Virus record (IMG/VR): IMGVR_UViG_3300017605_000497
Location: 1 to 21,185 of that record
DNA length: 21,185 bases
DNA from: a virus
Strand: one strand, 5' to 3'
Position numbers and translations under genes: made by a program. The first letter of the stretch is position 1, and each line of letters begins with the position of its first letter. Below are positions 10,107-20,830 of the stretch, one piece after another. The notes below the pieces were generated by a model that did no database searches, was not told where the DNA came from, and saw nothing but the letters and a program-made list of their open reading frames with translations.

Positions 10107-10203
10107 CCCTTGCGGGACTGACTACGGCTTTTCTGCCGCGAGTGCAAAGCGGACTTTTTTTGACGCGGGCTTCCCACCCTCGGATTCGGTTGTTTGACCT
10201 ACG
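10066..10203 (-). ncRNA. Structured leader or small RNA upstream of the capsid genes
   Basis: Downstream of the extended -10 at 10215-10210 the minus strand contains no gene for about 190 bases. It holds a series of short hairpins: CCGC...GCGG, CGGC-agaaaa-GCCG, and GTCCC-GCAA-GGGAC with a GNRA-type tetraloop (10105-10118). It ends in the long terminator-like hairpin at 10066-10106. The arrangement promoter, folded RNA, terminator suggests either a free small RNA of about 140 nt or an attenuator in the capsid mRNA leader. No known riboswitch consensus is recognised. Confidence 0.45.
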
Positions 10204-14445: not shown

Positions 14446-15756
14446 TTATCCCCCGAACACGGCGAACCTATCGAGACGTTCATTGAAATCCTCATCCGCT
14501 TCTGTCTTGCGAGGGATGCCGAGTGGCTTTTCACCAGCTCCCCAAACGCTCAACGCCAAGCTCATCACACGGTCGTCATGCAATCCATCTGGCACAGTGA
14601 CCTGCACTTTTCCGTTCTTTGTCAAAGAGTATTGGAATGATTCAAGCTCACTCATCAACCCCTCGTCATTCGGCATTTTGATGCGGTCTTGCTCGATCAT
14701 GATGGCCAGGTTGTCGAGCAACTGGCGGCGGCGCTTTCCCGTGAACGTGACGGCCTCTTCCTGCCCCTCCTTGGCGTCACGGTCGATCTCGACACCCATT
14801 GCGATCAAGTCATCCACAATCGGGTCGCCAAGCCCTGTGCTGTCGATACGCACCACTGGCTGTTTCCAACGGTAATAGCTGGCCTCGATCTTGGCTTTCT
14901 GCATCGGCCAGTCCACCTGGTTGAAACGCGTCTGCTCCCCCACCTTGAAGGTGTTGAGACAGAACGGTGTGATGACCGTCCAGTCCTGGTATTTGGCCAA
15001 GTCAACGCCAAGTTGGTAGCTGTAGCCCGCCAAAGGCAAGACGTTCTCTTCGAGCTTGAGCAGATCGTAGGTGTTCGTACGGATGCGACGGAAGAATGAC
15101 GTTGCGCTCTCGATGAACTCGCACTCATACTCCTGGCCGAAGAAGGCCGCTGTGGTCGTATTCTTGGCTTCAGCGAGGTCTTCAGGGCGAATGATGCCAG
15201 ACGTAGACGCCTTCATCATCGACGAGTGCCAGTTCGGGTTCTGGTTCTGCGAAGCATGTGTGTACTTGGCAAAGAAATCGTTGCGACCCTTTGGCGTACC
15301 CAAGAACCACGTCCACGCCGCTGGATTGGCTGTCATGATCGGTTGCACGATCCCCGACCACACTTCTGGCTTCATGTCGCCGTATTCATCCAAAACAACG
15401 CCACGAGGGTTCGGGCCTCGGAGAGAATCAGGTTTATCAGCCCCAAGCACGTACAAGATCGAACCGTTGGGGAACTTGATCGTGAGGTCTGAGTTGTTGC
15501 GCTTGTCCCAAATGTCAGGCGGACAATACTTGGGAAGCATCTCTGGCTCTTCCCAGACGATCTTCTTAGCTTGGTTCAGGAACGGAGCCACGTACCAGTA
15601 CGTCCCCCGAACTGTCATCGCCCAGCGAAGCAGCTCGTTGATCGCCATTGAGGTCTTCCAGCACTTGCGGTGCCACACCCCCACCTTGAACCTCGCTGGA
15701 TTGGCCATGAACGCTTGCTGGTGAGGCGCTGGCGTCCAATTGTACGGAATGTTCAT
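14446..15756 (-). CDS. terL: Terminase large subunit (ATPase and nuclease)
   Basis: A 436-residue DNA-packaging motor. The opening NWTPAPHQQAF is a typical adenine-binding Q region. A deviant Walker A, VWHRKCWKTS (27-36), is followed by Walker B VVLDEY (120-125) and the coupling motif GTPKG (153-157). The nuclease domain has acidic residues at Asp252 (LGVDLAKYQDW), Asp305 (VRIDSTG) and Asp394/395 (DGLHDDR). The usual Walker glycine before Lys is Trp33, which is odd. The gene start overlaps the small-terminase frame by 191 nt. No Shine-Dalgarno is seen at ATG 15756. Confidence 0.93.
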   Translation of the reverse strand: MNIPYNWTPAPHQQAFMANPARFKVGVWHRKCWKTSMAINELLRWAMTVRGTYWYVAPFLNQAKKIVWEEPEMLPKYCPPDIWDKRNNSDLTIKFPNGSILYVLGADKPDSLRGPNPRGVVLDEYGDMKPEVWSGIVQPIMTANPAAWTWFLGTPKGRNDFFAKYTHASQNQNPNWHSSMMKASTSGIIRPEDLAEAKNTTTAAFFGQEYECEFIESATSFFRRIRTNTYDLLKLEENVLPLAGYSYQLGVDLAKYQDWTVITPFCLNTFKVGEQTRFNQVDWPMQKAKIEASYYRWKQPVVRIDSTGLGDPIVDDLIAMGVEIDRDAKEGQEEAVTFTGKRRRQLLDNLAIMIEQDRIKMPNDEGLMSELESFQYSLTKNGKVQVTVPDGLHDDRVMSLALSVWGAGEKPLGIPRKTEADEDFNERLDRFAVFGG

Positions 15757-16222
15757 TTGTTTTGTTGATGGCGGTTGCCAAAGGATCAGATGCGCCGAAC
15801 GTCATCACGTTGATCGTGTTGCCATTCGAGGTCACGTCAGTTTCAGTCTTGTCTTTCATGCCCAAGTTATTCTTTGCAAAGAAGATGGCGAACTGTGGAT
15901 TTGCAGCCCCATTCATCCCCGCTTGAAGCACAAAACGCTTCTGTAATGCCTTCGCACGTGCGTATGCGGCGGAGTATCCCACGTACTTGTCTTTGTACTC
16001 TGGCTTCGCCCATTCAACCAAAGTGTCACCGTCTACATCAATTTCATGCGCAAAACCCTCAAACGTCGGCATCAGCTTACGCATTGTCTGGTACGGCTTG
16101 CCCTTGGTGTCGTAGATCAATTCGCTAGCGTCAACATCGAAATACTCAATGATCCTGTCGTTGATTTCAGGCGTCCATTTTGTTGGTTGGCCAGCGATAT
16201 TTGGCTTTGTTTCCCCCTCCAT
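15566..16222 (-). CDS. terS: Terminase small subunit (DNA-recognition)
   Basis: The preferred start at ATG 16222 gives 218 residues. The text WTPEINDRIIEYFDV, DTLVEWAKPEY, YSAAYARAKALQ and NPQFAIFFAKNNLGMKDKTE is typical of small terminases with an N-terminal DNA-binding helical domain (P22-gp3-like style). An upstream ATG at 16276 would add 18 residues, but these cover a plus-strand promoter. 16222 sits seven bases after an extended -10. The last 60 or so residues overlap terL in another frame and are low-complexity, so they may be a by-product of the overlap. Confidence 0.75.
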   Translation of the reverse strand: MEGETKPNIAGQPTKWTPEINDRIIEYFDVDASELIYDTKGKPYQTMRKLMPTFEGFAHEIDVDGDTLVEWAKPEYKDKYVGYSAAYARAKALQKRFVLQAGMNGAANPQFAIFFAKNNLGMKDKTETDVTSNGNTINVMTFGASDPLATAINKTNEHSVQLDASASPASVHGQSSEVQGGGVAPQVLEDLNGDQRAASLGDDSSGDVLVRGSVPEPS

Positions 16223-16229
16223 TTCCTCC

Positions 16230-16238
16230 ATTATAGCA
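16230..16238 (-). promoter_or_regulatory. Extended -10 promoter of the small terminase gene
   Basis: TGC-TATAAT on the minus strand, hexamer 16235-16230, is seven bases before ATG 16222. No -35 is apparent. It lies back to back with the plus-strand promoter at 16242-16270. Confidence 0.5.
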
Positions 16239-16241
16239 TAC

Positions 16242-16270
16242 TTGACAGGTTCCACGGCCTGAAATATACT
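16242..16270 (+). promoter_or_regulatory. Sigma70-type promoter of the cloverleaf RNA
   Basis: TTGACA (16242-16247), 17-base spacer, TATACT (16265-16270). This is the best -35/-10 pair in the window. The expected start near 16277 lies just before the cloverleaf. It faces away from terS. Confidence 0.7.
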
Positions 16271-16276
16271 TGACAT

Positions 16277-16380
16277 GGCTTATGATCCAAGCTAAACTGA
16301 TATTGTCAGTACAACCCAAACAGGGACTGCACAAAGCAGTGCTTGGATCACGCACGAACCCGTCCTTGTGACGGGCTTTT
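16277..16380 (+). ncRNA. Candidate small RNA: 66-nt cloverleaf followed by terminator
   Basis: Right after the promoter, 16284-16349 can fold into a four-way junction. A perfect nine-pair outer stem (GATCCAAGC / GCTTGGATC) encloses ACTGA-tattg-TCAGT, CCC-aaaca-GGG and ACTGC-acaaa-GCAGT. The last hairpin directly abuts both its neighbours, allowing coaxial stacking. A CCCGTC/GACGGG hairpin with CTTTT follows. The size recalls a tRNA, but there is no T-loop signature or anticodon arm. The same fold is possible on the minus strand, so a DNA site (packaging or recombination) is an alternative. Confidence 0.55.
16359..16380 (+). terminator. Terminator-like hairpin of the small RNA
   Basis: CCCGTC-cttgt-GACGGG followed by CTTTT. 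An outer ACGCA/TGCGT pairing flanks it. The T-run is short, so read-through into the downstream leader is possible. Confidence 0.5.
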
Positions 16381-16653
16381 GCGTTGCCATGTGATCGGGA
16401 CAGGAGTAGACCCAACTTCGACGGCAGATCATCCCCAAATAAGTGCCGTGTATAAGGGGTTCGACGCGGACACCTCAAACTCGTCCTGGAATGTCGAAAG
16501 GCGAAAGTAATGTGCGCCGCCAAACTGGAGCATCCCAGCAAGTGCGTACAGCCCTCTCCCAGTATCAAGGGAAATAGAGGGTGCAGACGATCAAGTCCAT
16601 CGCGGGACATTCCCTTTGCGTTTCCTAAATCTGAGCCAAGAATCATACTCAAT
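16381..16653 (+). other. Gene-free stretch with further RNA-like structure
   Basis: No convincing gene is found on either strand. Visible structure: a possible H-type pseudoknot (ACGGCA 16421-16426 with TGCCGT 16444-16449; loop CCCC 16433-16436 with GGGG 16456-16459); GGCG...CGCC near 16500-16519; CTGG-agcatc-CCAG; and a nested hairpin at 16552-16581 (CCCTCT-CCC-agtatcaa-GGG-aaat-AGAGGG). It could be the leader of the plus-strand zinc-ribbon gene, a longer non-coding RNA, or a packaging/replication site. Confidence 0.4.
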
Positions 16654-16857
16654 ATGATCGACCTGTCGAAGCTCAAACCCTGCAAGGTATGCGGAAGAAA
16701 CGACTGGCACTTCCAGGACGTTTGGGCTGGTCTGGTCACTGTGTCCTGCGGCTACTGTTTTGATGACTCCCACTTTATGATCGAGAACGCAACCCAGCCC
16801 AACGCACAGAGCGGAGCCATCCAAACCCAGTCGAGTATCGCAAGGCGCTTCATGTGA
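16654..16857 (+). CDS. Small zinc-ribbon protein, Lar-like
   Basis: A 67-residue protein from ATG 16654: LKPCKVCGRNDWHF, then VSCGYCFDD, giving CxxC-(about 22)-CxxC as in small phage zinc ribbons such as Lar-type restriction-alleviation proteins (similarity in pattern only). It is the only inner gene on the plus strand and ends 15 bases from the convergent gene. The frame extends upstream, but the earlier residues look random. Expression would come from read-through of the 16242 promoter, as no clear closer one exists. Confidence 0.5.
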   Translation: MIDLSKLKPCKVCGRNDWHFQDVWAGLVTVSCGYCFDDSHFMIENATQPNAQSGAIQTQSSIARRFM

Positions 16858-16872
16858 ATAACTTGTGGACAA

Positions 16873-17328: not shown

Positions 17329-17337
17329 ATTATAGCA
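17329..17337 (-). promoter_or_regulatory. Extended -10 overlapping a stop codon
   Basis: TGC-TATAAT on the minus strand, hexamer 17334-17329, includes the TAA stop of the upstream gene and ends eight bases before ATG 17320. The spacing equals that at the portal gene. It could be a chance match, since the stop codon supplies part of it. Confidence 0.4.
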
Positions 17338-17530: not shown

Positions 17531-17781
17531 GACCAAAGACGCTTTGGAAGGATGAACGGCAACGATGCGAAACACTTGCTGTGCAGCTCAAACAGGAGTT
17601 TGGTGTGCTTACGATCCGTCAGCGTGCTTTCGTAGCACTTGATACTCAGGCCACGGATGCCCTTCTTACACAGTTTGCATGAGGGTAGTTTCGTCTCCTT
17701 CTTCCCAGTAGATGCGGCGGATGTAGAGCAGGGCTTCGTTGACCGCTTCGAGGTTTGTTTCCTTGTCTGAGTTTTCTTCAT
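17527..17781 (-). CDS. Small zinc-finger-like protein overlapping the nucleotidyltransferase gene
   Basis: From ATG 17781 this gives 84 residues. The first 33 are basic and overlap the nucleotidyltransferase frame. Then comes PSCKLCKKGIRGLSIKCYE and later LFELHSKCFASL, a CxxC...C...HxxC pattern suited to binding zinc. The part after 17666 is clearly protein-like, and the gene ends in ATGA with the next. No start codon exists between 17781 and the Cys cluster, so the 116-nt overlap seems real. Confidence 0.55.
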   Translation of the reverse strand: MKKTQTRKQTSKRSTKPCSTSAASTGKKETKLPSCKLCKKGIRGLSIKCYESTLTDRKHTKLLFELHSKCFASLPFILPKRLWS

Positions 17782-18361
17782 AGGCTGTAGCAATGTCACG
17801 TTCAAGTTTTGTTGCAAGGTCGAGGACTTGACCGCGCGTCATTTCCTGGTTGCGGATGGCGCGGAGCATTTGGTGCATGACTGGCTCGACTTCCTGCACG
17901 TTGATCGGCAAGACCCCGTGGTACAAAAGGTGTGTTCCCTGCCAAAGCGTGCGGATGTAGGCCACGGCAAACTTCCACGCACGCCCGTCCTTGTCGTCCA
18001 GGAACTTCTTGCGCTGGTTCATGGAGTACCCACGGAAGGCGTCAAACACCCCACGGGAGTTCCACACATGAGGGAAGAGGGCGCGTACCATGTCCCCTGC
18101 CTTTGTGGTCGATTTGAGGGGCGAGCAGAACGCTTCCAGGATCGTTGGGTTGCACTTGGTTGCGAGGTGCAGGAAGTGGCCGATCTCCCATGAGGTGTCG
18201 TCAACGTCACCCTCGATCCAGTGGGTTGTCTTCGGGTTCGCTCCCAGACCAAGTATACGGGTCGTAGGCACGGCGAACACCCCACGGTAGTCGTAGTCGC
18301 TTGTTTCGTCATTCAGGCCGTGTGCGCGGCTTCCGACGAGGCATTTGAAGAGTTCTTGCAT
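17666..18361 (-). CDS. Predicted nucleotidyltransferase (COG3541-like)
   Basis: A 231-residue protein with the polymerase-beta superfamily signature CLVGSRAHGLNDETSDYDYRGVF: Gly10-Ser11 for the nucleotide and Asp22/Asp24 for metal. THWIEGDVDDTSWEIGHFL follows, then a helical domain (KCNPTILEAFCSP, RAWKFAVAYIRTLWQG) as in COG3541/YcgL-type enzymes common in phages. The substrate is unknown. The start lies within the previous gene (49-nt overlap). Its end overlaps the zinc-finger-like gene. The short sequence before the GS motif is normal for this group. Confidence 0.8.
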   Translation of the reverse strand: MQELFKCLVGSRAHGLNDETSDYDYRGVFAVPTTRILGLGANPKTTHWIEGDVDDTSWEIGHFLHLATKCNPTILEAFCSPLKSTTKAGDMVRALFPHVWNSRGVFDAFRGYSMNQRKKFLDDKDGRAWKFAVAYIRTLWQGTHLLYHGVLPINVQEVEPVMHQMLRAIRNQEMTRGQVLDLATKLERDIATAYEENSDKETNLEAVNEALLYIRRIYWEEGDETTLMQTV

Positions 18362-20800: not shown

Positions 20801-20830
20801 TTGACATGGATGCTGAACGCATGGTATCAT
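20801..20830 (+). promoter_or_regulatory. Rightward promoter for the plus-strand membrane gene
   Basis: TTGACA (20801-20806), 18-base spacer, TGG then TATCAT (20825-20830). The -10 ends six bases before ATG 20837, implying a leaderless mRNA. Confidence 0.65.

Follow-up and report, generated by a model that had tools for sequence, protein, structure and literature searches.

The window analysed here is an entire viral contig record of 21,185 bases. Nearly all of its genes lie on the minus strand, among them terS, terL, the gene of a portal-like protein (assigned from its position and from relatives) and that of the major head protein. The product of terS is a match to the DNA-packaging family of P22 gp3. 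Beside terS, and pointing in the opposite direction, the plus strand carries a promoter, a four-way junction and a terminator-like hairpin (Table 1). The only gene-like ORF downstream on that strand is zinc-ribbon-like, with two CxxC pairs; as a protein query against viral contigs, it returned no known relative. On the minus strand, an RlaP-family nucleotidyltransferase (RNA repair pathway) is encoded near the packaging genes, at 17666–18361. A TerL search of genome contigs led to one distant Elusimicrobium MAG. Judging by how the viral genes and promoters look, we guess that the host is a candidate-phylum bacterium.

Table 1. Features of the terS region and of related phages; positions refer to the window unless a relative is named
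Feature	Position	Strand	Remarks
terL	14446–15756	−	query used for finding relatives
terS, P22 gp3-type small terminase	15566–16222	−	ATG 16222–16220 preferred to longer ORF from 16276
terS extended −10 element TGCTATAAT	16230–16238	−	7 nt ahead of terS ATG
Sigma-70-type promoter of RNA unit	16242–16270	+	11 of 12 consensus matches
Predicted small RNA, ∼104 nt	16277–16380	+	from promoter and terminator positions
Four-way junction	16283–16350	+	outer stem and three hairpins, each with 5-nt loop
Intrinsic-terminator-like hairpin and TTTT	16359–16380	+	6 pairs, 5 of them G-C
Zinc-ribbon-like ORF, 67 aa, CxxC...CxxC	16654–16857	+	sole gene-like plus-strand ORF downstream
−10 and structured stretch	L066 205–420; L067 4770–4945; L068 1215–1380; L072 1556–1810; L065 3478–3605	terS-sense	

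The plus-strand promoter consists of a −35 element TTGACA (16242–16247), a 17-nt spacer and a −10 element TATACT (16265–16270); transcription is predicted to start near G16277. The best minus-strand promoter upstream of the element matches 10 of the 12 consensus bases and is ∼290 nt away. The terminator-like hairpin, CCCGTC-CTTGT-GACGGG, contains six pairs and is followed by CTTTTGCG. Its T-run is short (TTTT, then GCG), and no T-run follows the hairpin when it is read on the opposite strand. The original prediction had described both a TTGACA-17-TATACT promoter and a GC hairpin with a T-run, and both are present where Table 1 places them.

The stretch between promoter and terminator is predicted to fold into a cloverleaf. 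In the outer stem, residues 16283–16292 (TGATCCAAGC) pair with residues 16341–16350 (GCTTGGATCA). The three hairpins span 16296–16310, 16315–16325 and 16326–16340; their stems are ACTGA/TCAGT, CCC/GGG and ACTGC/GCAGT, with 5, 3 and 5 pairs, respectively. The four-way junction proposed earlier is therefore present and its pairing is perfect throughout, but the outer stem has 10 pairs, not 9. For the 76-nt stretch, the minimum free energy is −30.0 kcal/mol on the plus strand and −30.5 kcal/mol on the minus strand, with local shuffle z-scores of −5.3 and −4.6, respectively. On the plus strand, 93% of the ensemble is four-way, compared with 65% on the minus strand, and the cloverleaf is retained when 384 nt are folded.

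Like phage tRNA genes, the element is of cloverleaf topology, and one of its hairpins lies directly against the outer stem's 3′ arm, in the manner of a T arm. Different from tRNA genes, it has a 10-bp outer stem, 5-nt loops and a 3-bp middle stem, and it contains neither a variable loop nor CCA. ARAGORN and cmscan both rejected it, in agreement with the earlier statement that it is not a tRNA. Among the relatives, a real tRNA gene (Asp) lies between terS and terL in L066, at 1485–1559. We also considered a tmRNA or another large RNA in the stretch 16385–16655 of the window; with z-scores of −1.1 and +0.5 and no Rfam match, this candidate was rejected.

The long ORF of terS begins at 16276, a start that would place the RNA promoter inside the gene. 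Ahead of the inner ATG stands the extended −10 element TGCTATAAT, and the same arrangement, with the ATG following after 7–8 bases, is found at 17329 and 14423 of the window. In three relatives (L067, L078 and L081), terS is likewise preceded by an extended −10 element, with the ATG 6–10 bases on. Because the TGCTATAAT-ATG layout recurs at several genes, we put the terS start at 16222, where the gene probably begins. With this start, the RNA promoter becomes intergenic and stands back to back with the promoter of terS. The −10 element of terS is located at 16230–16235 and its −35 area falls in the spacer of the RNA promoter; from these coordinates, the core elements of the two promoters interleave, so that they should not be occupied simultaneously. 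The terS mRNA would be leaderless or nearly so. Extended −10 elements (TGNTATNAT) with an ATG 6–10 bases later occur at many genes, for example at 20822 on the plus strand and, on the minus strand, at 16230 and the two positions named above. To judge from this layout, leaderless or near-leaderless mRNAs seem to be usual in this phage group.

Relatives were gathered by TerL and head-protein scans; single-protein queries with TerS and with the portal protein against viral contigs returned none. The close phages have TerL identities of 51–61% and head-protein identities of 55–78%, and more distant phages are included as well. Searched against ∼75 of the related phage loci, a covariance model of the cloverleaf recovered only the cloverleaf itself, plus an insignificant match in L096 (E = 7.6). 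The element had no match in Rfam, either at the gathering threshold or at E up to 5; a 21-base pattern of it matched nothing in the viral contigs, and blastn of the 4-kb neighbourhood gave no match among phages. A literature search on this element found no report. Within the reach of these searches, the cloverleaf sequence is an orphan.

A scan over all 21,185 bases ranked the cloverleaf first in stability among the four-way junctions. The fold alone is within chance at the scale of the window, being matched in a third to half of shuffles. Four-way loci number 39 in the real window and 30–51 in shuffled windows, a four-way stability of −30 kcal/mol was reached by 3 of 10 shuffled windows, and 11 of 24 contained a 76-nt stretch that, allowing for GC content, equalled or exceeded the cloverleaf in stability. 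In a descriptor search, 22–23 perfect cloverleaf pairs were often attained in whole-window shuffles. Shuffled windows contained, on average, 0.095 promoters with at least 11 of 12 consensus matches, and not one of 400 such windows had a terminator 40–140 nt behind a promoter of this quality. The unit as a whole therefore exceeds chance, and the location of the most stable four-way junction exactly between promoter and terminator adds to the case. The original prediction had called chance unlikely; this is borne out for the combination of promoter and terminator, but not for the fold, which is unremarkable by itself. A stable fold might still have fallen by accident between promoter-like and terminator-like matches, as the frequency of equally stable folds in shuffled windows and the lack of conservation would allow. 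However, the 400 shuffles yielded no promoter with a terminator behind it even before the fold was counted, and we consider an accident of this kind quite unlikely.

We prefer to read the unit as an orphan small RNA gene on the plus strand, ∼104 nt long, which shares a divergent promoter region with terS; we put the probability of this reading at roughly one half. Promoter, structure and terminator stand in the right order and at the right spacing, and no credible coding gene is left in the stretch once terS starts at 16222; both points argue for an RNA gene. As far as the sequence tells, the unit possesses a promoter and a terminator of its own, as is asked of a small RNA gene. The earlier reading as a compact RNA gene is thus supported by the order of the elements and by the fact that nothing there looks like a credible coding gene; conservation lends it no support, as no homologue was found in which covariation could be examined. 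RNA polymerase would start near 16277 from TTGACA-17-TATACT, copy the compact four-way junction and stop near 16380, at the hairpin with the U-run. The product would be a stable RNA of ∼104 nt. Firing of the RNA promoter may restrain terS, and vice versa, by mutual exclusion. The unit would then probably be a regulatory small RNA of the phage, any action of the RNA itself being putative. Base pairing of the RNA with the translation starts of the phage gave nothing significant (best z-score −1.7), so a trans-acting antisense role is without support yet. Should the unit be transcribed, this phage, a member of a little-known and uncultivated group, would have an RNA gene coupled to its packaging gene through the shared divergent promoter region.

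Upstream of terS, several relatives (L066, L067, L068, L065 and L072/L077) have a structured stretch preceded by a promoter-like −10 element, both in the sense orientation of terS. The units of L066 and L067 are homologous, with GGGGAA..CCTCAATCG..TAAATAGC..CTGATAAGC..TACACTCAGACAA in common, and that of L067 resembles that of L068. The L066 and L068 units form four-way junctions in 97–99% of the ensemble, and their shuffles adopt a four-way fold in 5–9% of cases; RNAalifold on L066, L067 and L068 together supported only two local hairpins. In L067, terS has its own promoter behind the unit, so the unit there appears by its sequence to be separate from the terS message. The window element shows no sequence similarity to the L066–L068 units, and it does not fall among terS-sense units with a TGNTATAAT-like promoter, as its promoter is on the opposite strand. 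These units bear on the possibility that the minus strand of the window is the functional one, transcribed from further upstream into a structured RNA that precedes terS, runs in the terS direction and is a fast-changing member of the relatives' units. Several observations besides the layout and the four-way folds of the relatives fit such an RNA. A gapped 23-nt stretch, ACTGCTTT..TCCCTGTTT-GGGTTG, is common to the minus strand and to L089 (= L075), where it lies in the matching place, and 2 of 5000 shuffles were as good. In hindsight, a looser motif, CTGCTT..TCTGTTTAGG, was also noticed in L077, and the order of the hairpins relative to the outer stem, the first being stacked on the 5′ arm, agrees with L066–L068. 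The 23-nt match makes the strand uncertain. However, match scores like that of L089 are expected ∼8 times by chance in 1.3 Mb of loci, and the window, L089 and L077 share only a 4-pair hairpin in RNAalifold. No convincing minus-strand promoter lies nearer than 16642–16669, the terminator is oriented the other way, and the minus-strand ensemble is four-way in only 65%. The plus strand is favoured by its promoter, by the direction of the terminator and by its more homogeneous fold ensemble, and we regard a functional minus strand as doubtful, though it carries some weight. It is likewise unlikely, in our estimate, that the group keeps, where the terS region begins, a fast-changing four-way-junction RNA gene that acts in late expression or in packaging; by persisting layout and fold only, its members would be the window, L066, L067 and L068, and perhaps L072 and L089.

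Back on the plus strand, the cloverleaf and the terminator could form a 5′ leader with an attenuator, which would decide whether transcription continues into the zinc-ribbon-like ORF. This ORF is a possible read-through target, since it is the only gene-like one downstream on the same strand. A promoter–leader–terminator–gene layout is usual, and within the group it is seen before terS in L065 and on the minus strand of the window at 10203–10068. However, 280 nt separate the terminator from the ORF, no clear antiterminator pairing emerges (the cloverleaf persists in the 384-nt fold) and the ORF has no known relative, all of which makes an attenuator rather improbable. The lambda late leader (pR′-tR′, 'phage 6S RNA') is a short promoter–RNA–terminator unit near the late genes, which is read through under Q. 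Like this leader, the window unit is a short promoter–RNA–terminator unit near late genes. Different from it, the window unit is directed away from the late genes, and neither an antiterminator gene nor a downstream late operon is seen on the plus strand of the window. The lambdoid layout is better fitted by the minus-strand unit at 10203–10068, in which a promoter (TGGTATAAT), a structured stretch (z-score −5.4) and a strong terminator precede the capsid genes. The place beside terS had also invited comparison with the packaging RNA (pRNA) of phi29-like phages. Like phi29 pRNA (Rfam Phage_pRNA), which is a phage-encoded compact multi-branch RNA of ∼100–170 nt, the window RNA is compact and multi-branched, here with small loops, and it lies beside a packaging gene; its UUG and CAA could pair. 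The phi29-type packaging motor works without the usual kind of TerS/TerL pair, whereas a P22 gp3-type TerS and terL are both encoded in the window. Even with E relaxed to 5, Rfam gave no match, and the element is not kept beside terS in the relatives. In pRNAs, the sequence drifts but the three-way junction is retained, as is the complementarity between the right-hand and left-hand loops (PMC12670572). Different from these RNAs, the window RNA has a four-way junction in 93% of its ensemble and no clear left/right loop pair, the loops matching over only 3 nt (UUG/CAA). With nothing beyond position in its favour, a pRNA-like role is not supported, and an RNA working like phi29 pRNA is hardly credible here. 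A DNA site beside terS, used for packaging (pac) or recombination and with palindromes that resemble an RNA by chance, would be consistent with the adjoining P22-type terS and with ATACTTGACA, which occurs at 16238 and again 28 bp on, at 16266. The palindromes and repeats are not seen upstream of terS in the relatives, however, and promoter and terminator would have to be a coincidence; we hold such a site to be very unlikely.

Other elements were met in the window and in the relatives. Some hundred bases upstream of terS, three relatives contain a G-rich motif, GGGG(T/C)GGGG(G)TGGG(T/C)(A/C)CC, located at ∼1405 in L072, ∼3013 in L081 and ∼3705 in L086; it is possibly a packaging or replication site. 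On the minus strand of the window, two DnaA-box-like words, TTATTCACA and TTGTCCACA, lie 2 bases apart at 16853–16872. A replication origin with DnaA boxes at this position was rejected, the number of near-matches in the window being not above chance. In L070, residues 6351–6582 correspond to a group I intron (Rfam Intron_gpI, 91 bits).

A separate RNA element, which is better supported than the cloverleaf unit, was found ahead of the capsid genes. It combines a short hairpin, A-rich in its loop, with GU(U)AAAAA downstream of it, and is enriched in 41 regions of the window and its relatives. In the pre-capsid regions (L077–L122), it is located ∼30–300 nt upstream of the gene that precedes the head protein. 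Sixteen sense copies were counted in 14 regions, compared to 1 antisense copy and a shuffle mean of 1.1, and the copies use many different stem pairs. The window copy, GGG-TGGGAAG-CCC-GCGTCAAAAAAA, belongs to the minus-strand unit at 10203–10068; it was found by eye and missed by the strict search, and Rfam gave no match for the window element. The function of this element in the related phages is open to testing. In L108 (3191–3262), L115 (9353–9427) and L118 (8377–8448), a Met (CAT) tRNA gene lies immediately ahead of the gene that comes before the head-protein gene, occupying the slot of the hairpin-GU(U)AAAAA motif.
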